In this document: positions 10,274-61,239 of the stretch, piece by piece
How positions within the stretch are numbered: position 1 is the first letter of the stretch
Layout of the letters: each line of letters begins with the position of its first letter
Source of the DNA: Dysidea avara
Taxonomy: Eukaryota; Porifera; Demospongiae; Dictyoceratida; Dysideidae
Assembly (NCBI RefSeq): GCF_963678975.1
Contig: NC_089277.1
Location: 25,308,672 to 25,372,671, forward strand
DNA length: 64,000 nt
Direction: 5' to 3'
Made by a program: the position numbers and the translations under genes
Notes under the pieces: model-generated
What the model saw: only the letters and a program-made list of their open reading frames with translations
The model's database searches: none
What the model was told of the DNA's origin: nothing

Positions 10274-11162
10274 ATGTCTACTAGAAGTCACAGCAAAGTA
10301 TTAATAGTATTACTGGTGGTTGTCGTGTTGGTGTGTTGTATTGGCTATGTCCCGTACGGTGAGAGCCAGCCAGAAGATGGAAATGAAGTGCCCATCTCAG
10401 AGTTCACTGACTTGAGTCGATCACACCGGAAATTACACAGTCGTAGACGAGGTCGTGGATCTCGAAGGCGTGACCATACATCACTCTCTGCTATAAATAC
10501 GGAGATAACTACATACGAGGATAGCGAGCTGCCCAAGCCTTGGCCCAAGCTTCCTTCAATGCCAGAACTGATGACAGCATTTCAAAAAGGAAAATATCCT
10601 CCGCTTAAGGATTATAACCTCTCTGATGATGAGGTCGCAATGGTAGCCCAATTATTCAACATCAAAGGATTGGATTCAAGCGTTTCACTACAGCGAGAGT
10701 TCCTGGGGTGCCCAGCAAAAAACCTTATTCGTGATACGCGTATTCGCGAGTTTGTGGATGGAAGATATATTCTTACCAAGCAATATCAAACATGTAAGGA
10801 ATTATCATTCAAGAAACAACGTGGTGTGGTTGGACTAATCAGTTTCCCAGGATCAGGTAACTCCTGGGTACGTCAACTATTGGAGACCAGTACAGGTGTA
10901 TTCACTGGGTCTGTATATTGTGACAAAAGCTATGTTCAAGCTGGAATGGTTGGTGAGGGGGTTCGTTCAGAGTTTGTTGTAGCAGTTAAATGTCACAGTT
11001 GTCATAAAAGAGCTTTTGAACGATTTTCAAAACTAATATATGTCATTAGGAGTCCTTTTGATGCAATTTTGTCTGAATTTACAAGGAAAGCTGTTCATAT
11101 TGGTGGTACATATACAAATGCTAGTTCGAAGCATGTTGCTGAACTCAGGAGTACAGGCCTTA
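10274..11162 (+). CDS. Sulfotransferase gene 1, exon 1 (WSCD-like, Golgi type II)
   Basis: Predicted membrane-bound sulfotransferase that would transfer sulfate from PAPS to a glycan in the Golgi lumen. From the ATG at 10274, residues 9-25 form a hydrophobic anchor (VLIVLLVVVVLVCCIGY) after a short basic tail. A basic/acidic stem follows. A conserved stem block around LSDDEVAMVAQLFNIKGL ends in a CPAK cysteine. Residues 190-198 are the 5'-phosphosulfate loop SFPGSGNSW, 239-241 the K-x-H (here KCH, where paralogs have KTH or KSH) and 259 onward the 3'-phosphate segment RSPFDAI. The best family match is the catalytic half of WSCD1/2. An in-frame ATG at 9983 would put 97 extra residues before the anchor; I prefer 10274 because the paralogs begin just before their anchors. 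The donor GT is at 11163 (ctta|gtaagt), phase 1. With exon 2 the protein is 414 residues. Confidence 0.88.
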
Positions 11163-11689
11163 GTAAGTGGTAGTATGTATTTATATACTTCTATATATGT
11201 AAGTGGATGTTTTAACTAGATTTTAATTTGGTGTGCATATCAGAGTTGTAAGTGGGTCAGGTCATCCAGATTAGCTGGGTCATTTGGGTAGGATTTTGTC
11301 CGTCTCATCTGCTCTATTGAATATTTGGGTCTGACCTGGATTATCATACGTACATTTAGCAAGCTCAATTTTATTGGTGGAAATACAGTTATGCAGAAAC
11401 ATGCATGGAGCCACACCCACTCATCGGGATTGCATACTACTGTCTGGAAATGCATGGAATCATATCCACTACTGGGAATGCTACTTGTACCCATAGACAG
11501 TTTGTACATGAAAAAGTGCATGAAGTGATGATAAAATAAGTTGGACGATAAATTTTTTAAAAATCATTAAATTTACAGAAGTACATGTTAGCTTATTAAT
11601 CATGTACAGACTTACTGCTACAAATTTAATATTGTGCAGATTTAGCAGTTTAGTAATGTCATTCCGATGTGTAGCTAGATCAGTCCTTT

Positions 11690-14493
11690 TCTTACAGCTT
11701 CATAATAGACGACTGTAGACTCAACAGCATCATCTTTAAGATAGTTTCTGTCTTTCCTTGCAATGTGTCCATTACCACTAAAATGTCTTTCAGATTCAGC
11801 ACTCAAAGCTGGTATCGCTAGTAGTTGCTGTGTCAAGCAACTTAAAATTAGAAAAGTATATGATTGTTGTCCCCACCACAGCAAAGTATCAAAGACTGAT
11901 CTAACAGCATCAGGTTGCTGTAAATTCACACCCATTATAGTGTCGAAACTCAGCTTTGACATCAGCCTCAAAATCTGATGTATGACCACATCTTTTAGGA
12001 TTACCAGTCCCTAAACTCAGCAAATGAATCTTACTTTGCCTTCTTGGTAGCTACATCATCTTCCCTATCAGAGTGCTCTCCTGCTGTACCATCTTCAATA
12101 TCACTACCTTCTGTGACAAGAATACCAGCATATGACATGGTATTCTCCCTAGCAGCTTGTTCAGCCTGCTCAAGCAACAGGGGCGTAGCTAGCTTTCAGG
12201 ATTGCCCGGGCACAAGGTCTGACTGTTCCCATGCAAACTATTTAGCAAGAAATGTGAGCCCATCTCTGTAGACTCTTTATTACACATTTGCTTTCGAAAC
12301 TGTTTAAAAGTGCACTACTGATATACATGTACCTATAGCTAGCTATATACTATGATACACTGCTGTTTGTGCAGCTTATTAGACTAAGATACTACTGCAT
12401 GAATAATATAAAAGCTAAAAGCTAAACAATGATGGACTAACTTAGCCTCCAGCCTCAATATCGGGCTTCTTTTTCACTCCTCTGTTTGCCTGATAGCTAC
12501 AGCGCTTTATAAGCATCATAGTACTTCATCAGTGACAACTCCAGCCCCAGCATCGACTCCTTTTTCACTCTTCTGTCTTCTCTACTTGCACCGAGGACTC
12601 GACTTGCACACACTGAGTGCTTTTGCATAACAAGCTTTAAACAATGCCGTGGATCCTCTTGAGTCCTGCCAGACGGGCACCACAAACCAACTGAGAATTG
12701 GTTTTTGTCCGTCTTTCATCAGTCTAGACCATTAGACGTCTACTTACTTAATCTCTGAGTACTTAGTGTTGTCCACCAACTGGTTTCACCAAATTGCAGC
12801 ACATGTTTGACTCTCGACCCATGTTCAAATCTTAAAATGTTATCACGTAATGCTGGGCATTACATAGAAAATTACTACATTGACGGAGGAATCATGACAA
12901 ACTCAAGTATACGCGATTTTTGATGATACTATTATGGAAAGTATTACAAGGCGCTCCAAAAAGATAGCAAGTGTGGTGTGTATTAATTACTGGCACGCCC
13001 AGGCAGCGCCGCTATCATCAGGCTTGCTACCCGGGCACCAGCAATGATTGCCTGGGCCTGTGCCCGTGCAGGCCTGGGTGTAGCTACGCCCCTGTCAAGC
13101 AAATTCTTTCGTTTCCTAGCATCCTTGACAAATGAAAATGACTTGAGGGATGGGTCAAGGTAAGATGCAGCAACATGTATGGCAGTTACGTCTGCTCATA
13201 TCTTATCATCCAAAGCTGCAACCAACTTCCTTTTCAGGATACGCCCTGCTCCTGCTGTACTATCAATGGTTGATAACTCTGACCAGTAATTGCGAAGGAT
13301 GTACTGTAGTAAGCAGGCAAAACCGATTGGAGAGTGACAATATAGGAATATTCCAGTATGCCAAACTTCAACCTTCTGCAGAATATTGAGCACCCCTTCT
13401 ACTAGTGCTATATCTATATTGACTATCAAGTCATCTCTCCTCAAAAATGGCCTTAAAGCATCAAAACTGGTATATATTAAGAAATGAAAACTTGCTTATC
13501 CAGCTATACCATGGTCTAGTCTTTCCACCAGTTTTCAAAGTAGCTGGCAAGTTATATTACAACCCACCCGATTTCTTTACAAATTTCACAAGATTATCAG
13601 CACATTCATTTAATAAGCACAATTCATTGCTCTCCTCACAAGCCTTCTCCCATCCTGAGGTTGATAATTGGTGGCATGCACAATTAACATGGCATTTGGA
13701 ATTTGTTGCAGCTACCATGTTTGCACCTTTATCATTTGTGCATGGCACATTCTCTGCATCCAGTCCAGCTTGACTTGGAATTCTATCTAAGGTTATCTGG
13801 ATGTGGTCAGCTATTTTTGTGTTGGGGGAAAAATTTGCAGGCATACATATACCATGTCTGAGATCCCATTGTTTTTTGTCTGGACCAGTTTCCTGCACCC
13901 AGAAAAAGGTTACTTCCAGATACGAGCACTGAACAACATTATCTGACCATAGATCACTAACGAATGAGACTGCACCTAATTTTGATGAGGCAGCTATCAA
14001 CTCTCTAAGAGTTTCTTGAACTTGTTTTTACAATATCACTTCTAACTGTATGACGCCCTACAATAAAATCTGAGGCAGGAACATGCCCACAGACTGCACC
14101 TAAATCTACAAATGCTTGTGCAAAATGTTTCAGAAGTTCTTGCTCAACAAACTGCAGCAGCAACAAGATTGCAGTCTGTTCACGGATCAACATTCTTGTT
14201 TGCTCCCCAACTGTCCTTCCAGTATGCTTAACAAAACCGTCCAGGGTCCTCTGGCCAAGAACTTTTTGGACAAACTGGGTGCTGCTGCTGCTGCAACTGC
14301 CATCAGAACCACTTTGAATACTACTAGAAGATGATGTACAATTCTTTATATGATCCAGCATATTCTTTGTACCCAGCGATTTTTCTTTCCCGTTTACCGA
14401 CATTTTATAATGAAGACACGATTTACACACACTACAAGTACTTCTCAATGGCAGTCCAGATCCCATGCAATACAAAACTGGTCTCAAGCACAA
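11690..14493 (-). pseudogene. hAT transposase, degraded and interrupted
   Basis: Read on the minus strand from 14493. First comes a BED-type zinc-finger region (CSVCK...MLDHIKNC) and a glutamine/leucine-rich segment to about 14005. Then comes an RNase H-like core (13557-14000) with VSDLWSDN, CTNDKGANMVAA and CACHQL, the hAT counterparts of the catalytic D regions and the CxxH motif. A further block lies at 13196-13444. Last, at about 11675-11990, is the C-terminal dimerisation block LLAIPALSAESERHFS with KDRNYL. The order is correct for hAT. It is broken by frame changes and by the 917-bp insertion, so it is not active. Introns of the original gene cannot be excluded. Confidence 0.85.
12178..13094. 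mobile_element. Nested hAT-like non-autonomous element, 8-bp TSD
   Basis: The termini caggggcgtagcta (12178) and gtagctacgcccctg (ending 13094) are inverted repeats. The flanks tcaagcaa at 12170-12177 and 13095-13102 are an exact 8-bp duplication. Inside the ends, more inverted similarity is seen (gcccgggcac near 12209; cctgggcctgtgcccg near 13051). It interrupts the coding strand of the surrounding hAT transposase, so it inserted later. It has no convincing protein of its own. Confidence 0.88.
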
Positions 14494-14809
14494 CTGCCTT
14501 TCGATTTCTTATTAACCCTGAGAAGGAATTCTCCTTTTATCATCCGTTCTAGTTCGAGGAAGCAACTCACAAACAGTTTGAGGAAGCAACTCAATGGGGG
14601 CTCAGACACAAGATTCGATCGTCGATCTTTGCCTCAACCTTCACATAGATTAGAGTCACCAGACGCCATATTTTAAGAAAATGTGATCTCTTTAATTATC
14701 CGGGTCACATCTGGATAATTTAATTTATGGATGAGACCCACTCGACCCACCAAAAAATTGACCCGACTGACCTGGATTGTCCGGGTCATCCTACCCACTT
14801 ACAACACTG

Positions 14810-15966
14810 CCATAGGAACTAATAGTTTTATGTATGGGCAATGGTCTGTCCAGGTTTTGAGTGGTCATATCTCGCTAACTCTACATTCTTTCTTTGTGGT
14901 TTAATCTTGACAGTTTTCCTTTCACTATTATATTGGATGAAATTCATCAAATTGCGATGGTATGCATAGCCAGTTTGTCTCCAACTTCATCGCTATGGTT
15001 CCCAGGCATGGCACCGTTTTTGCGGCACTATTGCTGAGGACAAAGACAATGTACAAGATTTGTTTCACCATTACATTGTATTTGTGTTTGAATTAATTCC
15101 TCCCAACCTTTATAAAATTAACTATAGGCTACTGCATATTGTAGTCTATCTAAATGAAGGCTCAGGGTAGTAGTTATTTTTGCTCTGTTCCTTTTTACTG
15201 CCATTCTTAAAACTTAAATTTCGTGCCTTCTGACAGTTGAAGATGTTATGACTCTATACAATTGCATGGCTAAGGTTGAAATCAGTGACAGTGACAATGT
15301 CTCGCTTATAATAGAAGCATATATTCTACCTTACAAAATGTTCCTTAATTTTATGTACCCTGATCACTGTTTTCATATTTGGCATTGGAAACAATACCGT
15401 TTGCAGTTGTTGCACTGTTACAAACTCTGATGATAAATCGATAACTATCTGATCATCCAGTAGTGGAGCCGGTCTGTCCAGCTGTAGGGTAGTTATAAAC
15501 GAGCATGGCACTTTGAAACTCTCACACATGTATACACTGAGGAATAAAGCTGCAAGCTATACAGTATACTTCATTATGCTGTGAGCAAATTGAGCTTATA
15601 CCTTGTGAATAGTTGCACCACCAGAGCAATTTGCATTTGATACGTGTGTGACAAAATGGTCCACATCGAGACAGAAAGTGCTGCTGACCTGCATGCCATT
15701 ACCTACTGGCCCGAATAGTAAATCCAAATGGGACCGAGATCTAATTACACAGATGTGGCTAGGTTTAATTTGCATGTGTTGAAATCTAAATTGAAAGTAA
15801 TGGGACTAAATTTGAGCTTGATGTTGAACACAAGACCCTAGCTCTGCTGGTGACGACCAGCTATAAGTACAGAATGACATGTATGGAGTAGATTTTAGAG
15901 CCATTGTTGTTTTTAAATGTAATCGCTTGCTACACCATTTTTATTAGTGACTTTGTATCATTGCAG
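14810..15966 (+). other. Remaining intron of sulfotransferase gene 1
   Basis: Nothing further recognised. The intron runs from 11163 to the acceptor cattgcag ending at 15966. Confidence 0.7.
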
Positions 15967-16322
15967 GTGAAGTTTCTGATAAGTGGCAAGAGAAAGTTAT
16001 TCAGATGAAGAATGGATGGTTACATCATATTACCACTTGTCTTCAGTCAGAAGCCAAATTGCCTATGTTAGTTGTAAAATATGAAAACTTGAAGTCAAAT
16101 TTATTTATGGAATTAAAAAGAATGTTAGACTTCCTAGAAATTCCTTATACAGATGATGATATAGAGTGCACAGTTAATTCTAATGTTGAAAATTTTCACC
16201 GCCAACACCATGATAAATCTTTTGATCCGTACTCTCCACAGCAGAAGCAATCAATACTCGACATAATTAGGGAAGCTAATGTAATACTGAATCAATTTGA
16301 TGTGAATTATGACACAGATTAA
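15967..16322 (+). CDS. Sulfotransferase gene 1, exon 2 (C-terminal)
   Basis: The first two bases complete the split Ser codon left by exon 1 (a|gt). The exon encodes KWQEKVIQMKNGWLHH, then the hallmark LVVKYENLKSN (equivalent to the 'HYEDLK' segment of WSCD and other sulfotransferases), LKRMLDFLEIPYTDDD, ECTV, and NFHRQH plus DPYSP before a stop at 16320-16322. The 'KYENLK' and 'YSP' blocks are shared with the exon-2 sequences of genes 2 and 3. Confidence 0.9.
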
Positions 16323-19215
16323 AATATATAAGTTTCATTTCTGAATCAGTAAATTAATTGCTCTATACATATTTTATACATATCAAACTTGCAGTTGGTA
16401 TATAAATGTACATTCATGCAGCATTGTTGGACACTGGGAGCAAGGAGCATATGAAGGGAGAAAAATAGCTAAAATAACAGTATAGCTAAGAGGAAAGGTA
16501 CATATTATAAACATTCCAATATAGCATGTTGAAAGTATTCTAATAGAACAGTCATGGAGACAATTATAGTAAAATACTACCTTAAAAAGAAGAGTGTTAC
16601 AAAAGCTTTAGAATACTTCAAATTATAATAGCTAATATTTTTAGTTTTCTATTTTCAATTGAGAGTTTAAATCATGTTTGATTTAATAATCTCCGCCAAT
16701 TGTCATGGATAGCAATATCTCATGACCCAAAAATTACAGTAAACATACATTGAAATCATCCACTAATTCAAAATTACAAGTTCCACTTTTGAAAAGTCCT
16801 GGTACAGTACCCTGTATGGCAGGAGAAAGGTTCAATTGTAGAAGCTATGGCTGGTCAGCTACTTGAAGTATAGCTCCACAAAGGCAGAGCCTTACAGGGA
16901 CAGGTTTGGGAAGGGATGGTCAAAATGTGGGTATGATATGATAATAATTAGGTGTACTTTTCACTGTCACTTTGCAAAGTATATACAATTCTGCTAATGG
17001 CACATAATGTAGAGATTTGCATTTTAGTAGGTCTGCGTCAAATATGCCAGCATAATAGTGCTATGTTAGCACATTAGGTGGATATTTCAAACTCCAGAAC
17101 ATATTGTAATTCCAATATATGGAATAGATTGATACTCCCTAATAGAGCAGTCAGTGGAAACTGCAATAGAGCACTCAAATGCATTGTACATAGCTCCTTA
17201 GATTGATACTCTCTAATAGAATAGTCACTTGCAATTGGTGGTGAAATACTCTTCACTGGTTAGAAATATTCATAATTATAATTGTAAGAACTGTTGCTAA
17301 CTTAGGAGCATAATGCAAGCACAATGGAACACTGATAAGCACAATATAGCCTGTCAATAGGTGAAAAGTTAGGGGAAATTCCTGAAAGCATTTTGAGCAT
17401 ATTTGACTTAGGCCTATATATTTTAGGCATGTATGTATTATAATTATTATACAGGGGAATCTCCCTTATCTGGACCTCTACTATCCTTGTAGTTCAATTT
17501 ATTGACCATGATAAAGTTTGGGTTAGATGAAAGCACAAGGAGCTGGGAGCCTAAGGGTTGCTGTTTACCTGTTTGGTTGCTTGTTTATTCTACTAATGAT
17601 AACTACCACTTGGTTGCTAGGTGATAATACATTTTTACAGTCCAGGGGAGTGACCATGAATGCTATAGTGACTTCCCCCTCTGCCCACTAAACTGCATAG
17701 CACTGATTATAACTGATAACAACATTACTATTTATGTTGTATAGCATAATTACCATAGTAGCATGTATTTCTTAGTTATGTACGTTTCTGAGATAAAGAC
17801 GGTAGTATGCACCAAACTGCCCGAATAAGAGAGGTTCCACTGTAACTGAGACAGGACTATTTAGAGTATAGGCCAATCTCTAGCAGATTGCTCGATCCCT
17901 CCATTAAAGTTTAGTAATGCTTATAATATGCTTACATATATACAAGTATGTAATTGTAACATGAGTAAAATGTTGTAATACAGAAAACTTACATACTTCC
18001 AATGCAGAGGCATCATTTTTTTAAAATTACAGACATTATATAGTCGTCTATAATTGTCCATTATGTTCATACAGAGTTGTATTGTGGGTAGCCATAGTTG
18101 CTAACATTGGCCTTTCCAGCACATGCGTACATATGAAGTCATGCAAATAATTGTTATGAATACTCTATAGCTAGCCACATCATTGAGTCTGTGTTGCCAT
18201 CTACAGTATCTATATCATGTATATTATAATCTCAGTGCTGCTTGCAATTTTTACTGGTTTCCCTATTCTGCGATATAGCTATGCCAAAAGGCACCTGTTG
18301 AGCTGAAGCTGTCGATGTTAAGCAGAGAACCGCACATTTGTGCACAAATCAAGCTGGTAGCCTTAGCTGTCATTCTGCATTAGTAAGTCAGTCAATCACT
18401 CAGTCAGTCAGCAGAAATTCCACTAGCTAAATGATATTTGGTAGGAACTTATTGGAAATGTTTTGGGTTGCACTGAAGGTACTTTTGGGTTTGGTTATAG
18501 CTAGCTATATACCTCACCAATACTATTAACAAGGTGCCATGAAGTACAGCTGGTTTTTGACACCATTTTTTGTGAGGATGTGCAAACCTCCATGATCCCT
18601 AATATAGAGTTCTACCGTACTGTATGATTACAAAATTAGTCACAATTACACAACCACCAGGAGTGGCATCTTTCACGGTCTAGCCACTTATTGTCATTTG
18701 TTGGAGCGACTCTCTGTTTGTCTGGGTGCCACAATGCTTGGACATTTTTTCAGTTTGTTGCCTGGTACTCCTTTGTGGAATTGGACTCTGCTTTATTCTC
18801 CCTGCAGTGTGTTCAATACACTGCAGGGCTTTTTGGTTAAGGCCCCTTTTTTTAGGGGTTGATTGTATGTTTGCTGGCAGTTCATGCAGTGTTTTGTACA
18901 GGTCTATGTAGGCTCTGTAGGTCAGTTCTTACTTTCTTTTTTTACATGCTAAACTATGAGATTTCACTTCTAGCTAGAGATCGGAGAGGATGAAAGTGCC
19001 ATTTACCGTAATACGGCGGGAATAAATTTAACAAGGGCAGTCCATCCAGCCCGGGAAAAGAAAAAAAAATTGAGACTACAAGCGCCTGCTAGTACTGCAG
19101 TTGGCGCTTATAATCTCTCATCTTAATACGCCAAGCGCTGCAAGAACGTGATGATCACGAGGCGCCGTGCGCACTTAGCTATGCTATGATTATAGTATTT
19201 CCTAAGTGAACCACA
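16323..19215. other. Intergenic between sulfotransferase genes 1 and 2
   Basis: Contains a repeat copy at 17085-17440 and a stretch at about 18590 recalling the inverted-repeat element at 27961. A GC-richer segment at 18990-19130 precedes gene 2. No other gene is recognised. A + frame at 18726-18911 (Cys- and hydrophobic-rich) has no recognisable family. Confidence 0.5.
17085..17440 (+). repeat. Dispersed repeat, inverted partner at 25440-25830
   Basis: Words occurring in order here (gattgatactccctaatagagcagtcagtg, broken as gatactccctaatagagca and gtcagtggaaactgcaatag; tgcattgtacatagctc; cttaggagcataatgcaagc) recur in reverse complement at 25440-25830. The repeat contains two copies of the dispersed 'ACTCTCTAATAGARYAGTCA' word. 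The exact ends are not defined. Confidence 0.65.
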
Positions 19216-20149
19216 ATGATGCGAATAGGTCGTTGTTTCAGACAATTGTTGGTAATAGCTACATTGGTGTTGCTGGTTTGTGTTTTCTTCGTGACTCGAG
19301 ACGAGACTCACCGCACCGCTGCTGCCTTAAGGCATTCGTCGTCGAACCAGTTGGCGTATTTGCGTTTCATCTACGCTGCAAATAATCAACTGAACAAGGA
19401 CTCGGTGCATACTCCGAAGCTGAATGTCACCAGCCACTCGTCAGTATCAAACAGCGATGAAATCGTCACGGTGTCGTCTGCGACGGAATTGGAGGCAAAC
19501 AGAGATCCGCGTCACCTTTTGTCAGAAACAATAGATTCACGTAAAAATAACATTGATACTTCACCCAAACGAATAGAATTATTTCCTAAACAAAGAATTG
19601 GAGTGATTTTACAAGACATGAGGCACATCAACAGGCTCTCGTCCCGTCAAAGTGCCAACATTGTGCACTACATGGGAGTAACAAATTTGAATGAAGACTC
19701 TGCATCTCATTTTCTACGATGTTCAGGATTAGCAATAATTAAAAAGCATATGTACAATAATGGATATATACATATTCCAAAGCACTATCAGACTTGCAAG
19801 AAAATGTCATTCCAAGGACATGGCCAGGTAGTTGGTTTAGTCAGTTTCCCAGGATCAGGTAACTCCTGGGTACGTCAACTATTGGAGACAAGTACAGGTG
19901 TGTATACAGGGTCTGTGTATTGTGATCATGCATACGTAGAAGCTGGGATGATCGGTGAAGGTATCCAGTCAGGAAATGTTATAGCAGTGAAGTCTCACAG
20001 TTGTATGAATACATTTAGATATGCTAAACTGATTTACATTGTGCGAAATCCTTTTGATGCAATTTTTGCAAACTTTAACAGAAGGGTAATGAGGCATTCT
20101 CAGTATTCCTCTTCATCACATGTAGCTGAAATTGGTGACATCCGATTTG
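19216..20149 (+). CDS. Sulfotransferase gene 2, exon 1 (WSCD-like, Golgi type II)
   Basis: Same family and role as gene 1. The start is ATGATG at 19216. Residues about 9-26 (RQLLVIATLVLLVCVFFV) form the anchor. The stem is long and Ser/Thr/Asn-rich with an NVT glycosylation site. The conserved stem block here is LSSRQSANIVHYMGVTNL followed by a Cys (RCSGLA). The PAPS loop SFPGSGNSW is at residues 210-218, the K-x-H (KSH) at 259-261, and RNPFDAI follows. The donor GT is at 20150 (tttg|gtaagg), phase 1, at the same protein position as in genes 1, 3 and 4. It pairs with the exon at 32220, giving an intron of about 12 kb and a protein of 427 residues. Subgroup features (HYMG, C.GLA, RRVMR, SSSHVAE) tie it to gene 3. 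Confidence 0.88.
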
Positions 20150-20241
20150 GTAAGGATTACAAGAGAATGCATGACTGTATGTTGTAATGAATTATGTATT
20201 TGTGAAAACCTGGACTGTAAAGTATAAAATCCATGAATATA

Positions 20242-20490: not shown

Positions 20491-20492
20491 TA

Positions 20493-22487: not shown

Positions 22488-22492
22488 GATGG

Positions 22493-24211: not shown

Positions 24212-25440
24212 ATGGCAGAACCGACAGAAGAAAGAGAATTTGAAATGAGCAGCTGTGTTCGTGGGTATCACGTTTATCAAGCTATATGGTTACCATTATC
24301 ACATTTATCAAGCTATATGGTTGCCATTCATCAGTGAACAGGAACTGTAGAAGAGAAACCACTAATCCACGAGCTAGTTACACTGTATATGGTTACCCGT
24401 ATAAAGGATGGAGCAATGGTAGGGTACGTACCTTGCTTTATATCAGCATTGTGCTTGCTGTTTATTTAATAAGGTGGTCCATTTACTGCACCGTGACTGA
24501 ATGGTGGCGTTTTTTCCCATGACCTTCTGCAAGGTGGAATGGAGATACCTTGTACAACTCGTTTCATAGAATTTAAAAAGTAAGAAGTTTCTTTTCTACC
24601 AAATGCTGTAATTTCAATTCTCTTGGCAATACCAATGATGATACCAGTTACATTATATCTATTCAGCTAGCTCATCTTCCCAATGCTAGTATCAACACAA
24701 GTTCCAGGGAGAAAGTGCTCTGTGTGGTACAGTCTGAGAAAGATGCACTCACAGATGGTTTCGGTCACAGTTCAACATCAGAGTACACAGTCAGCAGCAC
24801 TAGTAATCAGCAGTTCTTGCAATCTTTGTTGATGTTCCAAACTATCACTGTGTCACAGGAGCCATGAGATCCTATTATCAGCATGGACCATCTAGCTGGA
24901 GTTATTGACCAATCTCCAATTTGGACAATGATTGAGCACTGTGATGAAAATGACAAACTTATAATAATAAACCACTATGAGCTTACTGATAAGCATATCC
25001 AATTTGCTCAATGGTTGATCAAGCAACAATTTCCCTAAATAGGTGGTCTTTGCCTACATTGCAGCAAAATACATCACTAGGCTCCCGAACTGCAAATTCC
25101 ATTCAGATCGTCCACTGTGAGAAAAGGAAACACTGGATAATGGTTTCTACTAAGTGGTGTAAAGGTACTCAAGTAGTGGTATATGATTCCATCTTTACAA
25201 AATTGGTTATGCGAATGTTTGGGTTAAAGAGAGCCAATGACATAATAATGATGCCGATACAGAAACAAGAAGGATCATCTGATTGTGGTGTTTTAGCCAT
25301 ATCTGTCATGACTTCACTGGTATACGACAAAGATCCATGTAAAATTAAATACAAGAGATCTGACCTATGAGAGCATCTTATAGACTGCTTCACAAAAAAG
25401 AAGCTCACTAGTTCCCAAAGGAGTAAAAAGCTACTCTTAG
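24212..25440 (+). pseudogene. Degraded gene: VRGYHVY (HIRAN-like) N-terminus and Ulp1-like cysteine protease region
   Basis: From the ATG at 24212 the frame reads MAEPTEEREFEMSSCVRGYHVYQAIW. A 31-bp direct duplication (24268-24298 / 24299-24329) then shifts the frame. Later pieces in other frames still read CRRETTNPRASYTV, SIYCTVT and DLLQGGMEIPC, giving the order of a family I know from repetitive genes in sponges and molluscs. Farther on, 24883-25440 reads a helical stretch (DKHIQFAQWLIKQQF), a stop, and then, in the next frame, HWIMVS, VVVYDS and QKQEGSSDCGVLAIS. These are the His, Asp, Gln and Cys boxes of Ulp1/C48-type proteases. A stop at 25368 interrupts it again. It is probably transposon-derived and not functional. 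Confidence 0.62.
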
Positions 25441-28500: not shown

Positions 28501-28532
28501 CAAAGTGACCTGAAAATGTTATGATGAGTTTC

Positions 28533-29109: not shown

Positions 29110-29830
29110 ACCTGTTTGCAGCTGATCTCTCTACTGGGTGACTTGAAATGTAGCTGAACTCTCTACAGGGTGACTTTGTTTGTAGCTGAACTCTCTACAA
29201 TGTGATTTGTTTCTTACTGATACAGTAGTATCTCTGCAGGGTTACTTTGTCTGGCTTATCTCTCTAAAGGGTGATTTGTTTTTGTAGCTGAACTCTCTAC
29301 AGCGTGATCCTCTAGCTTAACTCTCTACAGGATGACTTGTTTGTAGCTGAACTATCTGCAGGGTGATTTCTTTGTAGCTGAACTCTCTACATGGTGATCC
29401 TTCTAGCTGATCTCTCTACAGGATGACTTTTTCTAGCTGAACTCTCTACAGGGTGATTTGTTTGTAGCTGAACTCTCTACAAGGTAACTTCTTCTAGCTG
29501 ACCTTTCTACAGGGCGATTTGTTTGTAGCTGAATTCTCTACAAGGTGATTTGTTTACAGCTGAACTCTCTACATGGTAGTTTCTTTGTAGCTAAACTTTC
29601 TACAATGTAACTTCTTCTAGCTGAACTCTCCACAGGGTGACTTGTTTCTAGCAGATCTCTCTACAGGGTGACTTGTTTCTAGTTGAACTCTCTACAGATG
29701 ATTTGTTTGCAGCTGAACTCTCTACATGATGGCTTCTTTGTAGCTGAACTCTCTATTAGGTACCTTCTTCTAGATGATTTGACTACAGGGTAACTTGTTT
29801 GTAGCTGAATCCCCTACAGAATAACTTGCA
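29110..29830 (+). repeat. Minisatellite, about 30-bp unit, roughly 24 units
   Basis: The unit approximates TAGCTGAACTCTCTACAGGG followed by TGACTTGTTTG. Units vary in length (about 27-32 bp) and by scattered substitutions, so the array is old. It sits directly upstream of the dispersed repeat copy at 29892. Confidence 0.92.
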
Positions 29831-32219: not shown

Positions 32220-32569
32220 ATAAAGTATCTGGACAATGGAAACGAACTGTTACTGAGATGTCAAACAAGTGGTCACATCACGTACAGGAATGTCTACAAA
32301 TGCAACATGCTCCCACATTGGTGGTCAAATATGAAAATCTAAAGGCTAATTTTATCAATGAATTGAGAAAGATTTTAGATTTTATAGGATATCATTACAC
32401 AGAGGATGATTTAAAGTGCACACTTCAATCGAACACTGAACAATTCCACAGGAAACACACTACAGATGTTGATCCATATTCTCCTATACAGAAGAAGAAT
32501 ATACTTAGTCAAATTGAGATAGCGAATGGATATTTAAGTCAGTATAATATCTCTTACACTATTTCCTAA
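32220..32569 (+). CDS. Sulfotransferase gene 2, exon 2 (C-terminal)
   Basis: The first two bases complete a split Asp codon (g|at), matching phase 1 of the exon at 19216. It encodes KVSGQWKRTVTEMSNKW, LVVKYENLKAN, ELRKILDFIGYHYTEDD, KCTL, QFHRKHTTDVDPYSP and ends at taa 32567-32569. It is closest to exon 2 of gene 3 (shared SNKW, FHRKHTTD, LSQYNI). The pairing with exon 1 at 19216, 12 kb upstream, is inferred from phase, order and subgroup identity; no other candidate lies between. Confidence 0.88.
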
Positions 32570-38009: not shown

Positions 38010-38370
38010 TAATTACTTATTTATAAGGTCATAAAGTATACCTTAGCTATGTTTTGGGACCTACTTAACATGGTCACTATAATGAGGTGACTTTATTAAC
38101 GAGGCCATGAAGTACATTGTGGCTATGTTTGGGACCTACTTGAAATGGTCACTATAATGAGGTGGTCCTATTAATGAGGTCATGAAGTACACCTTAGCTA
38201 TGTTTGGGGCGAGCTTTACATGGTCACTGTAATGAGGTGGTCTTATTGATGAGATCATGAAGTACACCTTAGCTATGTTTGGGACTTGCTTGACATGGTC
38301 ACTGTAATGAGGTGGTCTTATTGATAGGATCATGAAGGTCATCTTAGCTGAGTTTGAGACCGACATTACT
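38010..38370 (+). repeat. Tandem repeat, 75-bp unit, about 4.7 units
   Basis: Units start near 38028, 38101, 38176, 38251 and 38327 (gaggtcatgaagtacacctt, then agctatgtttggga, then catggtcactataatgaggt). A more diverged array of the same unit is at 42820-43200. Confidence 0.88.
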
Positions 38371-46037: not shown

Positions 46038-46812
46038 ATGGTGCAGGAAAGTCGTATAAACTGCTTCAAATCACTGCTGTTCATTATAGCGGCAGCTTCG
46101 GTCATGTTGGGTTTTTGTACACTAGTCTATAGTGCTCCAAGAGATTTACTCGGACACAGTTTACTTTCATCGTCACGGACAAGTCATCTAGCTGAGTCAG
46201 CGGCAAACAGAGAAACAATAGTATCCAAAGACAAGAAATTATTTAATTCACAAATAATCAAACAGATTTCACAGGAGATTGATGTAGACTACATTAAAGG
46301 GCTCTCATCTAGTCAAAGTGCTGATATTTTGCGATACATGGGGATAACACATTTGAGTGGAAAATCTGCAATTCGGTTTCTACAATGCCCAGGATTAGCA
46401 ATGCTTAAACAACATGTGGACAGTAATGGAAATCTGCACATTCCGAACTATCAGACTCGCAAGAAAATGTCTTTCCAAGAACATGGCCAGGCAGTTGGTC
46501 TACTCAGTTACCCAGGATCAGGTAACTCTTGGGTACGTCAACTCTTAGAGACAAGTACTGGGGTGTATACTGGGTCTGTTTTTTGTGATTATGAGTACAT
46601 AAAAGCTGGGATGATTGGTGAAGGTGTCCGGTCAGGAAATGTTATAGCAGTAAAAACTCATTTTTGCAAGGATGTGTCTAAATTTTCCAAAGTGATTTAT
46701 ATTGTCAGAAATCCTTTTGATGCAGTCTTTGCTGATTTTAACAGGAAAGTGATGAGACGGTCTGAGCATTCTCCTTCATCTCATGTAGATGAACTCAGTA
46801 CTACCCTATTTG
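46038..46812 (+). CDS. Sulfotransferase gene 3, exon 1 (WSCD-like, Golgi type II)
   Basis: Same family as genes 1, 2 and 4, with the shortest stem. The ATG at 46038 follows the leader gtgaaccaagaat, resembling the gene 2 leader. Residues about 10-30 (KSLLFIIAAASVMLGFCTLVY) form the anchor. The stem block is LSSSQSADILRYMGITHL then QCPGLA. The PAPS loop is SYPGSGNSW at 157-165 (Tyr where the others have Phe), KTH at 206-208, then RNPFDAV. A Cys conserved in the other three (YQTCKK) is Arg141 here (cgc), and one residue is missing just before it. The donor GT is at 46813 (tttg|gtaagc), phase 1. The apparent frame beyond 46812 is intron. With exon 2 the protein is 374 residues. Confidence 0.87.
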
Positions 46813-46978
46813 GTAAGCACACATGCACATTAACTGTTATGGTAAAGTGCACATGTAAGTAGCTGGTATATGTAGCAAACCAAAAACATTGCTTGAAGCA
46901 TAGTCATGCATAATAATTATTGCCTGTGGTAAAGCCTGAGCATATTATGCTTTTGATTGATGCTCCAAAATTGTTCTG

Positions 46979-48460: not shown

Positions 48461-48468
48461 GTTATCAG

Positions 48469-51606: not shown

Positions 51607-51859
51607 AGCAAGCGTTCAAAAAATTTACAGATTTTTTTCAATTCCACTCATTGCATTTATTCCATTCTACTGTAAAAAAAATGCTTGTGCTATTTGCTAT
51701 TTAAACATGTGGGATTCTTGTGCCCCAAAAAATGAGCCAGATTCAGTCACAATTTATGTGGTTAAACCTTCCTATAGAATTGTCTCTACATGTAGCTACT
51801 CCTGTATGGTAGATTTTATCAGCTCATACTAGTTAATGATTTTTTTCTTTGGTGTGCAG

Positions 51860-52209
51860 ATAAATTGTCTCATAAATGGAGCCAGGTTGTTACTGTGCAA
51901 TCAAACAAGTGGTTACTTCACATACAGGAATGTCTTCAACAACACCATACTCCCACAGTGGTAGTCAAATATGAAAATCTAAAAGCTAATTTGATGACTG
52001 AATTAAGAAGAATATTTGATTTTCTGGGATATAATTACACAGAGAATGATTTACAGTGTACAGTTCAATCGACTTCCGAAACGTTCCACAGGAAACACAC
52101 CACAGATATCGATCCATATTCCCCTGAACAGAAAAAGTTTGTTGTTAGTGTAATCCAGAAGGCTAACAAATTGTTAAGTCAGTATAATATTACTTACCCA
52201 CTTCAATAA
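51860..52209 (+). CDS. Sulfotransferase gene 3, exon 2 (C-terminal)
   Basis: The acceptor is tgtgcag ending at 51859; the first two bases complete the split Asp codon (g|at). It encodes KLSHKWSQVV, SNKWLLHIQECL, VVVKYENLKAN, ELRRIFDFLGYNYTEND, QCTV, FHRKHTTDIDPYSP and an NIT glycosylation site, with a stop at 52207-52209. It is the same length as exon 2 of gene 2 and its closest relative. Confidence 0.9.
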
Positions 52210-52373
52210 TTTAATTTTGGAATGAATATCTGTAATTATTGGTGTTCATGTATATGCATGCAAAATCAGGGGTAGATTTAGGGGTTGCTTGGGATGTTGC
52301 AGAATTTTTTTTTCCCACAGCAAGGATGGTTACATAGTATAGGCTACTATTATGTTATTGTATGTATGATCAA

Positions 52374-53163: not shown

Positions 53164-53455
53164 CTGCATAACAGAAAGAGCAGTGACAGTCTCAATCTAG
53201 TACCGGTATACCGTTACTTATAATTAGTTCAATGATTATGCTTACAAACAGTGTTACTCATACAGCTGTATCTCTTCTGACTAACCTAGCAGTGCACTTT
53301 TTCTAATTAATTTCAACAACTCTCTTACTGTCATGGAACTATTATCCACTCTCTCTTAATTAGTCATGGAACTATATCACTGACAACTCTCCCACACATA
53401 TAAGTAATTTTAAGCACTGATTTTATAGTAGCTACAAGGGGAGCTAGCACTGGTT

Positions 53456-54331
53456 CAGGGCCGTAGCCAGACTTTTGTCTGGGTAGGTTCTTTTAGAAGA
53501 AAAGTGGACCTTTTTATATACATGATGCAGATTATATTATGGTTTGCATACTGAAACTAGGGGGGTCAGGGGGCATGCCCCTCCTCCCCCCAAGAATTTT
53601 TTGAAGATACTAAAAGGTTCAATTTAGTGACATTTCAGTAACAATTTTTTAGGTAAGCTCAAGATCAGCTGTGTGGATAACATCTGGAAAGATACTGTAA
53701 TTATACTGTCTCAGTATACATGCATGTGTTGGAATGTCACAGTGAATAAGAAGAATAAGAATGGGAAAGATTGAGCAATCTGTCATGATTAAGAGGGACA
53801 GTGGAGCAGAAGAGTGTCTTAAAACAATGAAATTTACACATTGCATGGAGTTGAAGCATAGATGTCATTGATGGGCTCTACATGGAGTGGCTTTCCCACC
53901 AATTTTTACATAATTTAATGAAAGCTCAAGTTTAAACAATCTCAATATGTTTTTATTAAATGCTATCCCACTAGGAACCTGTGAGAAGGCTAGAGCCTGT
54001 GAATACAGGGAGTCAGAAACATTGTAAATAAATCAAGCAGCTTTGAAAAGAAAATGTAATTGTGACTGTTCTATTAGAGTGATTGTTCTATTAGAGTGAT
54101 TGACTGCTTTATTAGAGTATCTTGATCTTGAATTGAATTTAATACAAGTACTGAATGAGCTGCTCGGAGCACTCAATTTTGCTTCTTATTAGTGGTATTT
54201 AGTAAACTATAGCTAATGGACTTGTGCTACTGAAAATTTGGACTTGTATACTAAAATTGTGGACCTTTTTACTGAAATTGTAGACATTTTTTAGAGGGTG
54301 GTTCTTCAAAACTCCCCTGGCTACAGGCCTG
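53456..54331 (+). mobile_element. CAGGGCCGTAGCCAG element, 5-bp TSD
   Basis: The ends cagggccgtagccag and ctggctacaggcctg are inverted repeats. The flanks tggtt (53451-53455) and tagtt (54332-54336) form a 5-bp duplication with one change. The interior is the same as 46979-47677 and, inverted, 23159-23962; it carries three 'TTCTATTAGAGTG'-type words at 54063-54126. Confidence 0.83.
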
Positions 54332-55227
54332 TAGTTGCTAGCATACCTTCAGCATGCCAAATTACAGTTCACTTATTTAAATGTATTGTACAATGCTGTA
54401 ATGTCTAAATAAATCAATAAATAAATTGCATTAAATAAAGAGCAATCTAAGAAAATTGCATTTTTAGTTAATTCAGCTAGCTAATTCAGCTATCTAGTTA
54501 GTAAAAATAAAATGAAAATCCGCCCTCCCGCACTGGTATTTTGAGTACAGGAGGATGAGAGACTACTAATTAAGTTTATGTGGCCTATATAAATAAATAA
54601 ATAGTTGTAAATTGATAGCAAAATTGCACAGCATGCAATTTAATTGTTGCACAATTTGTCATCTACTAGCTTAAAGCTACACCTTTTAAGTTAGGAACTT
54701 CTAGACTCTTGTTAACTCTGGCAGCATACCACTGGAGTGTTCTGGGCTCAGCTGTGTGTCTTTTGGCAATGAAGCAAAAACCAAATAATGGTGATGAAGC
54801 TATTATTAAATCCTGTTCTATTCCCATAAAAGCTTTTGCACTATAGTTGTGCTGTCAAAGGGTCTGTCACTTTTCAAAGGGGTAGCTATATTGTGAGATA
54901 TTGAAGTCACAGTGATTTTTTGAAATCAGTAATTTCATGTAATTTCCATGATTTCACCATGGTTGACTCTCAGGAGCCTCATAATTAAACTGGACAGTTA
55001 ATGAGTTATATTGTCAAACAATATCACTATTTGGAAATGGAGAAATTAAGCATAGGATATCAAAATAGGCAGGTTTGCATAGCAGTGTATCATCTAGTGA
55101 GAAGACTCTAAGCTATATTAAGGAATTTAAGTTATTAGTCATCACGCCAATTTCATGTTATCCATCAGCATAGCGAATATTGTCAGACTAGAGATTAAGC
55201 CATGCAGATGTGTGAATTAAATGGTCA

Positions 55228-55470
55228 TCAGGAGTGAGATTTCGATGGATTACAGACTATGCCTTAACTTAACCTGCCACATCAGTGTGACAGCATGCAA
55301 GTTACAGATATTGAAAAAAGGTTGTATATAGTTGTATCGGGGCCTCATGATCAGTTAGCAGAGGTGAGATTCTGATGGCTTGTAGACTATACTTTAACTT
55401 AACCTGTCACATTAGTGTGACAAAACTTCAAGCATGCAAGTATACATACGTTATAGGCATTGAACAAAGG
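55228..55470 (+). repeat. Two-copy tandem duplication, about 120 bp
   Basis: gagtgagatttcgatggatt ... acttaacctgccacatcagt ... ttgaaaaaaggttg recurs as gaggtgagattctgatggct ... acttaacctgtcacattagt ... ttgaacaaaggttg. Confidence 0.8.
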
Positions 55471-57463
55471 TTGCAATGCATAAGAAAGGACAAAGGCATG
55501 CCAGCACTGGTAAAGTGGCTAATGTTGATGTATATAATAAACCATGTTACAATCAGTTACTACATGCCAGCCATGTTGGATCACATGACTTTATTTTGTA
55601 ACTATTTTAATTTAAGCCAACATCCTAATAGAACACCCACCGAAACACCTCCTTAGGAAGCTCCCAACCACAAAAGAAGTCTTAGAAGTTACTTTGGAAG
55701 AGGTATAGATCCACTTGTAAATATGAAGTCAAAAGTATTCTTATCTTAAATCTTGAAATATGCCACTTTGTTCATCTTATTGTTTTCCACAAGCCTACAA
55801 AAAATCTGGGCACTCTTTGAATATAAAAAAAAACTACATAGCCTTCCTTTCTATGTCTTTCTTCGTACGTCCATGACCTAATTTAAATGCATATTACAAC
55901 GAATCAAATTTGCTTCTAGCAGACTCACTTTGCCATTGAGTAAAACCTTATTCACTGCACAAGGAACCCCTATTATGTTAATAATATGTGTTAGTAAGTA
56001 TGTTCATTTATAAACCCTGTATCATCACCTATATTTTAACAGCAGTATATTGAGTTCATACCAGAGCAACAATGTTGTTGCAAACTTATTGTGACAGAGG
56101 TGCACATGTGTGCACATGTACCAGAAGCCTTACCCAAATGAACATTGCTGACCACAGCACGCTATATACTTGTTTTTTTAAAAACAATCTTTATTCTCCA
56201 TAAGACCCATATTTGAATTTTTAAAATACACTAGTAAAACAATACTAGGTATATACAGACATGGTAATAACTAGCTGAATGTTCTCCTGCAGCAAATTGT
56301 ACATTTATACAGGGGTAATCTGTACTATTGTTACCATGTATATGATGAGTACTTTGCACCCACGAGTAGCACCGTGTCCTACTTTTTCAGATACTGTATA
56401 TACAGTATACTTATCTGCAATGCAGTTAAAAAACTTTATCTGCTGAATATAAAAGTTAAGTGCATGGACCTATGTTAGTTGAAGTCAGTTACAGCTAATT
56501 AGTCAAATACCTTACAGTGCATGGACCAAGTGCATTATTATGTTGGACCTATGTTAGAGTGCCTATGTTAGAGTACCTATCTTGTCAAAGACATTAGTGC
56601 TTTAGAGATGGTTCAAAGAAAATCAGCATGATGCATTACAGATTGGTAAAGTGGAATAAGTGTTGTATCTAAATCATCTTCAGTGTTAACCATTTTCATA
56701 GTAAAGGCACGAATGCTGTGCCATGCATGGTTCCTGTATTTGTTATCTTTAAACTTATGTACAGTTGTCAATGTTCACATTTTCCATCACATCTGATAGT
56801 ACTACAGCAGCTTATCCATTGAGCATAGTTCCAAATTGTAATGTTAAATGAATTGATCATGTATTTGAAGTACAGGCCTTGGAGTAGATACATGATACCT
56901 TCAATGGTGATGTTGGAAGTGTTCACAAATTTTACTCCTCCAGTGTAGTTACGGTAACCATGTGTACAGAGGGATCATTGTATCCCACAATTGTAACATT
57001 TTCCACACCTTTTATCGATACAAGTGAAGATAGCCACACATTAACTTTGTTGCTATGTTGATGACGACATTATCATTGAGATTGACCTGAGCATGTGATC
57101 ATGAGTTTCCAGTGGTACACCAGGTAAGCACGCATCTCCTCAGTGAGCCTGAAGCAGATGTAATGCAGTCTTCATCATCAACCTTCTGTTTGCCGGCGTT
57201 GCATAAAGAGTAGAACTACAGTAACATTACAACTGCAAAACTTCTGTATAGCAGCAAATGCAACATCGCAGCAGTGATGCACGCCAATAACAATGCCACC
57301 TCTATGTCACTCTATAGCTAGCTGCTTTTAAAGGAAGCTGATACTACACTTAGTTAACAAACCTGACAGGTAGTAAATTAATAGCCCATTATTAAAGTTT
57401 GCAGCTCTTTTTAGCTTCATGTATAGCTTTACAGTGGTGCCTAGGCTCTAAAGTATTTTGATA

Positions 57464-57790
57464 TCACTGTCGATTAGCTGCTAATGAATCCTTATACTTA
57501 GGTGTAGCAATTAGTGATATGGTTTTTTCAGAGGCTTTCTTGAACCACTCTATTAATTGATCTTTAGTGCTGGGACCACTAATGAAGTTAATATGCAGTA
57601 ATCTAAATTTTTTGATATGGCTTCCAGAAATGACACGTAGAACTTCATGTCCAAGGTGTTTAGTATAAGTGTCCAGGAATGAAATTAGCATATTGTGGAA
57701 CCATTGGATGTTGTGGAAGCCCAAAACAATTATATTGAAGCCATTCAGAAAATGAGCAAGAAAACGATGATAACTGACAATTATAAGCAT
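57464..57790 (-). other. Unrecognised open frame, 108 codons
   Basis: The minus-strand frame starts with hydrophobic residues and ends in a charged STKDQLIEWFKKASEKT segment. I do not recognise it. It is longer than most chance frames nearby but has no visible splice partner, promoter or paralog in the window. It may be chance, a transposon remnant or an exon. Confidence 0.2.
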
Positions 57791-59044
57791 CCACTACTCA
57801 CAGTACCAAGCAGATTGTATAATGTTCCAAGATATAGAGCTGTAAAGTAAGGTTTTATGAAATAATGCTTTCCATGGTTGAGTTTCTACTTGTAGAAGTG
57901 ATTAATGAAGCTTAGAAATAGATGATTGTTTGTCAATGACATGAAATACGAAGGCTAGCCTACGTACAATCACCTAGACGGACTGACAAGCAAACACCAA
58001 GTTTAGCAAGCCAGTAAACACTATTCAGATGAGCCTGATGCTTGTTCTTGTGTTTTTCTGTAAATATAGAAACAAGTATCCATCTAGCTGTTTGCATGCT
58101 TACAATTTCAATTTCAGCAGCTTGTGACTGTAGCCAACCATATTTGCATGTAAAGCCCTGAAGGTTCTGGATTGCTCTCCTCTGCACTTTTAAATGTGTT
58201 TTGATCCAGAGAAGAGCGATTTAAGAAGATTAATAGATCTGCTTAACATTACTGGCTCTGTATGCACAGCATGACTATATATAAGTCACAGGATTGTAGT
58301 TACAATGGTATTTGTTCAGAATTATCATACAGCTGTCATAGTTAGATCAGAGGTGTACTTATTCTTAAAGTATGTCAGAGATATAACTGCGTATGCAAAA
58401 AGTAAACCGACTGTGCACATTTTAAGTGGGATAAAATTTAAATGAGATAAAATTTTAAATGCACCAGTATACTACAAGCCAAATATAAGTATTACCATGC
58501 ACATGCATGATCTTAGGACCTTGTATCATGTACTTACCAAAGCATATGTAGAGTCTAGTCCTGCAGCATATGATGTGGATGTATATTTACAAGTCTGGTA
58601 AACTCTAAAATTGCACCAAAAGGATTTTCTTACAACATAAATCATTTTTGAGAATCTTGAATGCACACAATGATAAGTCTTCGTATAACATGGAGGAGGG
58701 AATTATTATGGTAACTTGCCAGATGGCATATAGTTAGTGGCTAACAGCAAATTAATGTACAAACAGCATAGCTAGAATATAAGGATGGGCTCCTTCACCC
58801 CATTGTGATTTTCTACTGTTGGGGAATTTGAATAGGTGCTGCAGCCACAACTACGTGGTTGGAATCTCTGCTTTCTGCACAAAGAGACCAGAGTTACGGT
58901 AGTGTTGGATGCTCCACCAGCTTTTACTCAGTCTCAGGTCATGATGTGCTGTGACCTGCTTGGTCTCAGTTGTCATGGTAACCTAGTGACCCATATTGGT
59001 GCACTTGATCTTGCAATATCTGAGAGTCAAGTATTTCCATCACT

Positions 59045-59634
59045 TTAGGTCACCAATAATTGTAGATTCCTTGTTTCCTGTCACCCGCCCACATGGTAAT
59101 TATAGAGCCGCATGCAAATTATTATTGCATTTGATAGTCATGTGAACTAATTATTTTTGTTTGTAAGTGCTAGTGTGAGCACATGGTGTATTATTGGAAC
59201 GGTAGTGAGTTTCTGATGTTGTTTAGTGCCAAAAAGCATGGATAACTACATAGTTTGTACCCATTCCAACCTTGGGCCAGATTACAAGCAGCAAATCTCT
59301 TCAAGTAGCCATTGGTGAACAAGATACATTAATGAACAGGAGCTCCACTCATCTGACAATCTGTTATTAAGGAGTGTGGAACATATGAATATATTTACCT
59401 TAACACTCAGTCATTCTGTGCCTCCCTCTATCATGAAATACTGCATTCACGTGATCTGTAATCAAATAATTAAAATATGGTGCGGCTACCTAAAATTTGA
59501 TGCAGGCTGTGATAGGAAATATTGAAGGAATAAATCTATTATAATAATGATGGCCTAATAAATAATAGCCACCCGCCCGCATGGTATTTTTTTCCTGACT
59601 AGGATGGGAAACAAGTAATTTACAATTGTTGGCC
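59045..59634. mobile_element. Probable element related to the TTA-flanked MITE
   Basis: The left end ttgtagattccttgtttcct with cacccgcccacatggta and the right end ccacccgcccgcatggta ... gggaaacaagtaatttacaa are inverted partners, resembling in layout the element at 41899-42268 (tail 'CCGCCCACATG' and 'GGGAAACA'). The exact ends and target duplication were not resolved. Confidence 0.5.
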
Positions 59635-59739
59635 TTATGATTAGTTTTCAGTTGTCAAGTGCTCTACGAGTGTAGTGGCACCCTCGTAAAATCAGCTAAG
59701 CAAATATTAGCCAGACCACTTTTATGTGTGTATGTGCGT

Positions 59740-60350
59740 GTGTGGGGGGGACCCACTTTTAAAAAGGTAGTCCGGCTGACTACGCAAGACTAAACAAATG
59801 CAGCAACTGCTGATTATTACTGTACGAAGTGCAGTGCACCGCCTCGACCCAAGCACAGACGGCCGGGGATGAGACTACAGTACTGCTAATGGCTTCGGGG
59901 AGGCAGTTGTGAGAGAACATTTCTTGATGTCAAGGTTTTCAACCCTATGCCCCCAGTAATTGTTCTGCAACTCATAGGGGGATTTATAGACGACATGAAA
60001 GCATGAAGAAACAAACTAATAGCTATGAAGCAAGGATACGAGAGACAGAACATGCTACATTCACACTTTTGTTTTTCTGCCACAGGAGGGATGGCTGATG
60101 AATCTTGTGCATTCTACAAACGCTTGGCATCCTTGTTATGTGAGAAGTGGTCCGACACATATGCCGCTGTAATGGGGTGGCTTCGTTGCTGCCTGTCATT
60201 CTCATTGTTACGCTCTGCCATCAGACACATGTGTAAGTGGCTCCCGCTCTTCTGCTGGAAGTTTCGTCGACGAACTCATTTAGGTTCAGGCAGAAATTGG
60301 ACTGATTTCCTTAGTTTTGTAACTGTTTGTGTAAATTTTGTAATATAAAG
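59740..60350 (+). pseudogene. Non-LTR retrotransposon ORF tail, adjacent to gene 4
   Basis: Frame pieces read GGSCERTFLDVKVFNP (about 59900-59945), then, after a missing base, YAPSN, and from 60090 ATGGMADESCAFYKRLASLL, KWSDTYAAVMGWLRCCLSFSLLRSAI. I recognise 'CERTFLDV.VFNP.APSN' and 'GWLR..LSF.LLRSAI.C' from the 3' part of reverse-transcriptase-like ORFs common in invertebrate and fish retrotransposons. Frame breaks show it is dead. Its end is 140 bp before the start codon of sulfotransferase gene 4, so it forms that gene's upstream region. Confidence 0.65.
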
Positions 60351-60488
60351 TCGGTTGAAAAAAAGAAAAGAAAAGAAGAAAAGTTCGCTAAGTAAGTTAC
60401 TATAGTACGCAAACACAAAAGAAATTTTCGTTTTGATTTTCCGTTCCAGTTCGTGTTCGTGTTCCAGTTCCATTTTTTTTTGCCACTG

Positions 60489-61239
60489 ATGAACAGGGTT
60501 GTGAAACTAGTCCTAGTGGCATCAGTTATCTTGTCATTGGTTTACTACGTGATCAACTACCCGGTGTCAGTGCGTAGTGTTGAATACGGTCAAGAGTCAC
60601 AGGAAGATCCACGGAAAATTCGCGGTGGTGTAACGGAACTCCCTGAAACAACGGCGGAGCTGCAATATAATTTGGTGCGACTTATGCAGAATGGGTCCTG
60701 GCCTATGCATTATATCAAACAACTTTCTAATAGTAAAGTTGTAGAGGTAGCCAGGCTTTTTAATGTAACAGGCTTGTGTCCATACTGTGATTCACTACAA
60801 CGTCAATTCTTTCACTGTCCAGCTAAACATATTATCAGTAATCATCGTTTTGTACAGGGGAAAGGTGTAATCACAAAGCACTACCAAACTTGTAAGAAAA
60901 TGGCCTTCAAGAAACAGAGTGGTGTGGTTGGTTTAGTCAGTTTCCCAGGATCAGGAAACTCCTGGGTACGTCAACTGTTAGAGACAAGTACAGGTGTGTA
61001 TACAGGGTCTGTGTATTGTGACCAAAGTTACATTGATGCTGGAATGCTTGGCGAAGGAATTAGGTCAAGATATGTTATAGCTGTGAAGACTCATCATTGT
61101 GCACATTCAGGATTCTCAAAAGTGATTTATGTTGTAAGAAATCCTTTTGGTGCAATTTTAGCTGAGTTTACCAGACTTGTGAATAAGCATTCTAATGCAT
61201 CCACATCACATGTTGCAGGACTTGGTGCTAAACACTTTA
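60489..61239 (+). CDS. Sulfotransferase gene 4, exon 1 (WSCD-like, Golgi type II; exon 2 outside window)
   Basis: Same family and predicted PAPS-dependent Golgi role. The ATG at 60489 immediately precedes the anchor (VKLVLVASVILSLVYYVI, about residues 4-22). A GTG farther upstream in frame is not a plausible start. The stem is short with NGS and NVT glycosylation sites. The stem block is LSNSKVVEVARLFNVTGL, then CPYC and HCPAK. The PAPS loop SFPGSGNSW is at 151-159, KTH at 200-202 and RNPFGAI from 217; Gly221 replaces the Asp found in the other three. The donor GT is at 61240 (ttta|gtaagt), phase 1; sequence beyond it is intron. Subgroup features (LFN, CPAK, KKQ.GVVGL, AEFTR) tie it to gene 1. 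No 'KYENLK' exon occurs before position 64000. Confidence 0.85.

Follow-up and report, generated by a model that had tools for sequence, protein, structure and literature searches.

A tandem cluster of sulfotransferase-like genes

The window, a 64,000-nucleotide stretch of the Dysidea avara genome (C6:25308672-25372671), contains four paralogous genes, A to D, all on the forward strand and located where the original prediction had placed them (Table 1). Each gene is interrupted at the same position by an intron, for which a phase-1 donor had likewise been foreseen; the donors of all four genes are in phase 1, with the exon ending in G or A and the intron beginning with GTAAG. In A, B and C the reading frame continues across the acceptor to the stop, yielding spliced products of 414, 427 and 374 amino acids, respectively. 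Pairwise protein identity among A-D ranged from 40 to 59%, reaching 59% between B and C and 54% between A and D, with the remaining pairs at 40-47%. The 31-base unit of the tandem arrays listed in Table 1 was absent from all genome and viral contigs searched.

Table 1 Features of the window and its immediate flank. Positions are those of the window unless a contig is named.
Feature	Position	Strand	Remarks
Ubiquitin-specific protease exons	2100-3778		UCH, PF00443, E 5e-9 and 7e-13; upstream of the cluster
Dead exon-2 fragment, A-D family	7003..7162	+	3 stops in aligned part; C6:25315708-25315833
Gene A exon 1	10274..11162	+	anchor, stem block, SFPGSGNSW, VKCH, RSPF, phase-1 donor
Stem block of A	10619..10828	+	approximate limits
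Gene A exon 2	15967..16322	+	C-terminal half of sulfotransferase domain, up to stop
Gene B exon 1	19216..20149	+	in-frame stop starting 9 bases 5' of ATG
Stem block of B	19636..19827	+	approximate limits
Ulp1-like protease fragment	24993-25367		PF02902, E 0.016, below cut-off; perhaps transposon-derived
Tandem arrays	29231-29809 and 38016-38361		units of ~31/61/92 and 75 bases
Gene B exon 2	32220..32569	+
Gene C exon 1	46038..46812	+	SYPGSGNSW; Arg in place of QTC Cys
Stem block of C	46302..46490	+	approximate limits
Gene C exon 2	51860..52209	+
Exon-1-like fragment, A-D family	58544..58681	-	E 1.6e-6
Gene D exon 1	60489..61239	+	phase-1 donor
Stem block of D	60723..60923	+	approximate limits
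Gene D exon-2 match	C6:25376382-25376711 (= window 67711-68040)		outside window, ~6.5 kb downstream of exon 1

All four N termini carry a hydrophobic anchor, with best 19-residue Kyte-Doolittle means of 2.4-3.1 within the first 31 residues, and a type II orientation is predicted from this hydropathy. Downstream of the anchor, the PAPS loop reads SFPGSGNSW in A, B and D and SYPGSGNSW in C, the K-x-H motif reads VKCH in A, VKSH in B and VKTH in both C and D, and an R-[NS]-PF segment was found in every gene. Hydropathy and alignment confirmed these elements, which had been attributed to each gene beforehand. To place these motifs within the wider family described below, we aligned 44 exon-1 sequences, the window genes included, which remained from 47 pieces after the removal of three that were broken or partial. 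The Pro, both Gly and the Trp of the PAPS loop, the K and H of K-x-H, and the R of the 3' segment were present in all 44 rows, and the P of R-N-P was kept in 41. The 5'-PSB and 3'-PB PAPS motifs of WSCD1/2 are therefore represented in the A-D family by this alignment.

The sulfotransferase assignment also held in profile searches. Sulfotransfer_1 (PF00685) scored 49.4 bits in A, 45.8 in B and 52.1 in C against the 22-bit cut-off of Pfam, values so far above it that chance is excluded for these three proteins. Exon 1 of gene D alone gave no Sulfotransfer match in Pfam, and its exon 2 scored 28.8 bits for Sulfotransfer_1, above the cut-off, in the genome search.

A family of about 45 genes across the genome

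We searched the genome assembly (550.8 Mb, 108 contigs), in which 15 chromosome-sized contigs, C1-C15, of 14.2-65.1 Mb each together make up 549.7 Mb and the other 93 share approximately 1.1 Mb. Exon 1 of D as the query returned 46 matches and exon 2 of A returned 51, counts that are lower bounds, as they are for any large family in this search. An exon-1 match was paired when the family match that followed it on its strand, at most 60 kb away, was an exon-2 match. This applied to 45 of the 46 exon-1 matches, at a median gap of 4.8 kb; 15 pairs lie on C4, nine on C6, eight on C5 and 13 on seven further contigs. This count of at least 45 exon pairs with one layout upholds the proposed lineage expansion. 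The four-gene cluster as originally described is present in the window but proved an undercount, with six pairs across approximately 128 kb of C6 and about 45 genome-wide. Two pairs of this C6 cluster lie upstream of the window; their likeness to A is 83-84% for exon 1 and 87% for exon 2. Stops fell within two of the 46 exon-1 matches and within 15 of the 51 exon-2 matches, where they may simply be the natural end. A second, broken copy of the PAPS-loop region was observed upstream of a family gene on C12 (positions 137-232 of L014).

In a tree of the 44 rows, rooted at the midpoint only, 35 rows (34 with NSW and one with NAW) formed a single clade (100/99) that includes window genes A-D, and nine rows with NTW or STW lay apart. 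Human WSCD1, as a provisional reference sequence not drawn from a database, joined one of these nine, L043 (84/80), on a very long branch that makes its placement untrustworthy. Nor did likeness to this WSCD1 reference split the paralogs: NTW-type rows ranked first and second and A-like rows third to fifth, leaving the groups unseparated.

For the catalytic part of the window genes, dN was 0.20-0.37 and dS 0.55-1.81, from which dN/dS values of 0.21-0.40 were derived. Across paralog groups, with pairs of dS >=2 left out, the median dN/dS of the stem was 0.29-0.53 and that of the exon-1 catalytic part 0.26-0.42. Of the two parts, the stem was the faster in both larger groups and the slower in both smaller ones. 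Individual C4 pairs reached a dN/dS of up to 2.31 in the catalytic part. Positive selection was rejected on the group medians, which are below 1 in each of the four groups, and judged from these ratios, the genes of the family look constrained. We also considered prokaryotic or viral relatives. A peptide pattern was matched by 62 stretches of viral contigs and by 67 of genome contigs, none of which was a relative by tblastn, and relatives of this kind were discarded.

Two further gene families were recorded during the genome search. Cathepsin-type C1 peptidase stretches are clustered at C3:16.42-16.44 Mb, and three cathepsin loci (two on C3, one on C1) carry an active-site Cys, not the Ser of the silicatein active site. 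Homeodomain matches numbered 34, a total more in line with the counts typical of sponges than with those of cnidarians, and three of them lie close together at C10:28.445-28.457 Mb, possibly an NK-type cluster, although this name is a guess.

Relation of the catalytic part to WSCD1/2 and cytosolic sulfotransferases

In vertebrates, WSCD1 and WSCD2 (also named sialate:O-sulfotransferase 1 and 2) are described as sialate O-sulfotransferases with a type II topology in the Golgi; such proteins are reported in animals ranging from echinoderms to vertebrates, and the mouse enzymes put sulfate on the sialic acid of glycans (PMC9304399). We compared A-D with provisional reference sequences of WSCD1 and SULT1A1 that were not drawn from a database, SULT1A1 being the sole other family compared. 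The C-terminus of the human WSCD1 reference aligned with A (E 3e-28), B (E 2e-25) and C (E 9e-28) at 30-31% identity across 222-224 positions, and with exon 1 of D at 44% identity across 91 positions (E 4e-18). The SULT1A1 reference gave E values of 0.6 for A, 5e-8 for B, 1e-9 for C and 3.5 for exon 1 of D. Of 200 shuffled versions of the WSCD1 reference, a single one came up within the limit of E<=10, against D at E 8.9. The better E values for WSCD1 agree with the WSCD-like catalytic part named in the original prediction, and the closeness of this part to WSCD1 over SULT1A1 is supported at the level of these provisional references.

Shared with WSCD1/2 are the type II anchor, predicted in A-D, the C-terminal PAPS-dependent domain, the PG-x-GN-[ST]-W loop, K-T-H and R-N-P. 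In contrast to WSCD1/2, the A-D family has no WSC domains that we could find and instead a stem block in which one Cys is conserved, comprises about 45 genes as opposed to two in vertebrates, and resides in a genome with no sign of sialic-acid synthesis in searches for NeuB, CMAS and GT29. Cytosolic SULTs (PF00685) belong to the same superfamily by profile score; however, their PAPS loop reads PKSGT where A-D have PGSGN, and A-D possess an anchor and a stem, neither of which is known from cytosolic SULTs. None of the four window proteins takes the soluble, anchor-free form typical of a cytosolic SULT, as the hydrophobic anchor is present in all of them.

These features bear on whether A-D could be small-molecule sulfotransferases, acting in detoxification or on natural products and expanded alongside the chemistry of the animal. 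The likeness of B and C to the provisional SULT1A1 reference would fit such a role, as would the weak PDB sequence matches of A, the best being StaL (E 0.007) and SULT1B1 (E 0.026), and a PF00685 expansion in the coral Acropora tenuis has been interpreted as detoxification (PMC12314368). Nevertheless, an anchor and stem in all four proteins suit luminal glycan or protein substrates, and we regard a small-molecule role as unlikely. The coral expansion resembles the sponge family in having arisen by tandem duplication in a non-bilaterian animal and differs from it in its detoxification reading; the main text of that study contains no word beginning with WSC (PMC12314368).

The stem block and the absence of WSC domains

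The WSC profile (PF01822) matched none of the four window proteins in Pfam and had 0 matches genome-wide, in a search in which the control genomes were equally without a match. WSC domains in missed upstream exons were considered and judged unlikely. Anchor, stem and PAPS loop of A-D are encoded in a single exon with one uninterrupted frame, and gene B has a stop just 5' of its ATG with no AG between the two; because of this single open frame from anchor to PAPS loop and the upstream stop of B, we rejected upstream WSC exons, and the proposed lack of WSC domains was retained.

Within the stem block, L116, S117, L133, F143 and C146 (A numbering) are identical across A-D. The stem Cys occurs in all 44 exon-1 rows, doubtfully in L036, where most of the stem is missing, and the QTC Cys just before the catalytic part occurs in 40 of the 44. 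A disulfide between the two was not supported, given that the four rows without the QTC Cys retain the stem Cys. No Pfam match over the cut-off fell on the stem block in A-D; a TackOD1 match overlapping the stem of D (E 0.015) was below it. The stem had been put forward as a block shared by the four genes and possibly as a new domain. It is indeed common to A-D, but it is not peculiar to them, since it is spread across the family of about 45 genes. Furthermore, an AlphaFold2 model of the stem, with the four window rows as input, had a pLDDT of 47 and a pTM of 0.36, too low for the stem to be called a new domain, and the block may simply lead into the catalytic domain from its N-terminal side.

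Sialic acid, fucose and the likely acceptor

We next asked which glycan-related genes accompany the family. NeuB and CMAS had 0 genome matches in an exon-by-exon profile search in which short exons can be missed and the controls were prokaryotic; GT29 likewise had 0 matches in an exon-by-exon search with the same weakness for short exons, in which no control gave a match. ATP-sulfurylase was found as four exon pieces and GT10 fucosyltransferase as 20 stretches, and it is from these two positives alone that the ability of the search to pick up multi-exon or glycan genes here can be judged. Nine of the GT10 stretches are clustered at C5:14.80-15.17 Mb, with the rest on C13, C3, C7, C1 and C4. 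GT10 is a second expanded glycan-enzyme family here. Sulfotransfer_1 stretches numbered 74 genome-wide, 48 of them without overlap to WSCD-like exon-2 matches, and the relevant glycan sulfation could fall to these 48, which lie outside the A-D family. Some of the 48 are clustered, at C11:26.42-26.52 Mb, C7:14.39-14.44 Mb and elsewhere.

As no sialic-acid synthesis was found in the genome, A-D probably act on sugars other than those of their vertebrate relatives, and sialic acid appears an unlikely acceptor in this genome. If A-D were instead sialate O-sulfotransferases like vertebrate WSCD1/2, the sialic acid would be self-made or taken from food or symbionts. The catalytic likeness to the provisional WSCD1 reference and the sialate activity of the mouse enzymes (PMC9304399) are in keeping with this, and GT29 sequences are reported for two sponges, Amphimedon and Oscarella (PMC5811610), which means that GT29 need not be missing from sponges. 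Yet NeuB, CMAS and GT29 went unmatched where a like search found ATP-sulfurylase and GT10, and about 45 genes far exceed the two of vertebrates; a sialate-directed function is thus improbable.

Predicted function of the A-D family

That A-D are sulfotransferases of proteins (e.g. of tyrosine) or of glycosaminoglycan-like chains is very improbable: protein and glycosaminoglycan sulfotransferases do share a type II Golgi architecture, but the Pfam profiles that pass are Sulfotransfer_1 (A, B and C) and Sulfotransfer_3 (B and C), with Sulfotransfer_2 found for A alone and below the cut-off. We favor, with a probability of roughly 0.7, the reading that A-D belong to a lineage-expanded, WSC-less, WSCD-like branch of predicted type II Golgi glycan O-sulfotransferases whose acceptors are non-sialic, fucose-containing acidic glycans. 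Each product would be a type II Golgi membrane enzyme with its C-terminal domain in the lumen, where this domain would transfer sulfate from PAPS to a hydroxyl of a glycan sugar. The stem block would hold the catalytic domain off the membrane, and PAPS could be supplied via the ATP-sulfurylase present in four exon pieces. The acceptor would most likely be the fucose-containing acidic glycans of surface and matrix, not sialic acid.

Sponge glyconectins are described as containing fucose and sulfated hexoses (PMC7828597), and a 2021 paper named the isolation of glyconectin sulfotransferases as a future task (PMC8271808). The product class predicted for A-D, sulfated and fucose-containing sponge glycans, is alike to that of glyconectin sulfation as these sources present it (PMC8271808, PMC7828597), whereas a role of A-D in sulfating the glyconectin glycan itself is putative. 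A bolder and rather unlikely extension is that the family of about 45 genes produces a combinatorial pattern of sulfation on fucose-rich sponge glycans, and that its members include the sulfotransferases for the self-binding glyconectin-type epitopes of sponge cell recognition; if so, tandem gene turnover would make the recognition glycan differ from one species or lineage to another.

The chemistry of PAPS-dependent sulfation in the Golgi is already known, and the description of the locus as an undescribed system was accordingly too strong. A literature search of titles and abstract openings, covering few subscription journals, had no sponge WSCD-like family among the matches listed, and the word sulfotransferase is absent from the Terpios hoshinota genome paper (PMC12465263). 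A 2019 review considered it probable that, glycosaminoglycan enzymes aside, no glycan-modifying sulfotransferase of an invertebrate had been characterised (PMC6994554). The A-D family provides concrete, clonable candidates for such enzymes. Collectively, our analysis suggests that a WSCD-type catalytic domain exists apart from WSC domains and from sialic acid, and the sialate activity of vertebrates may therefore be a later specialisation.
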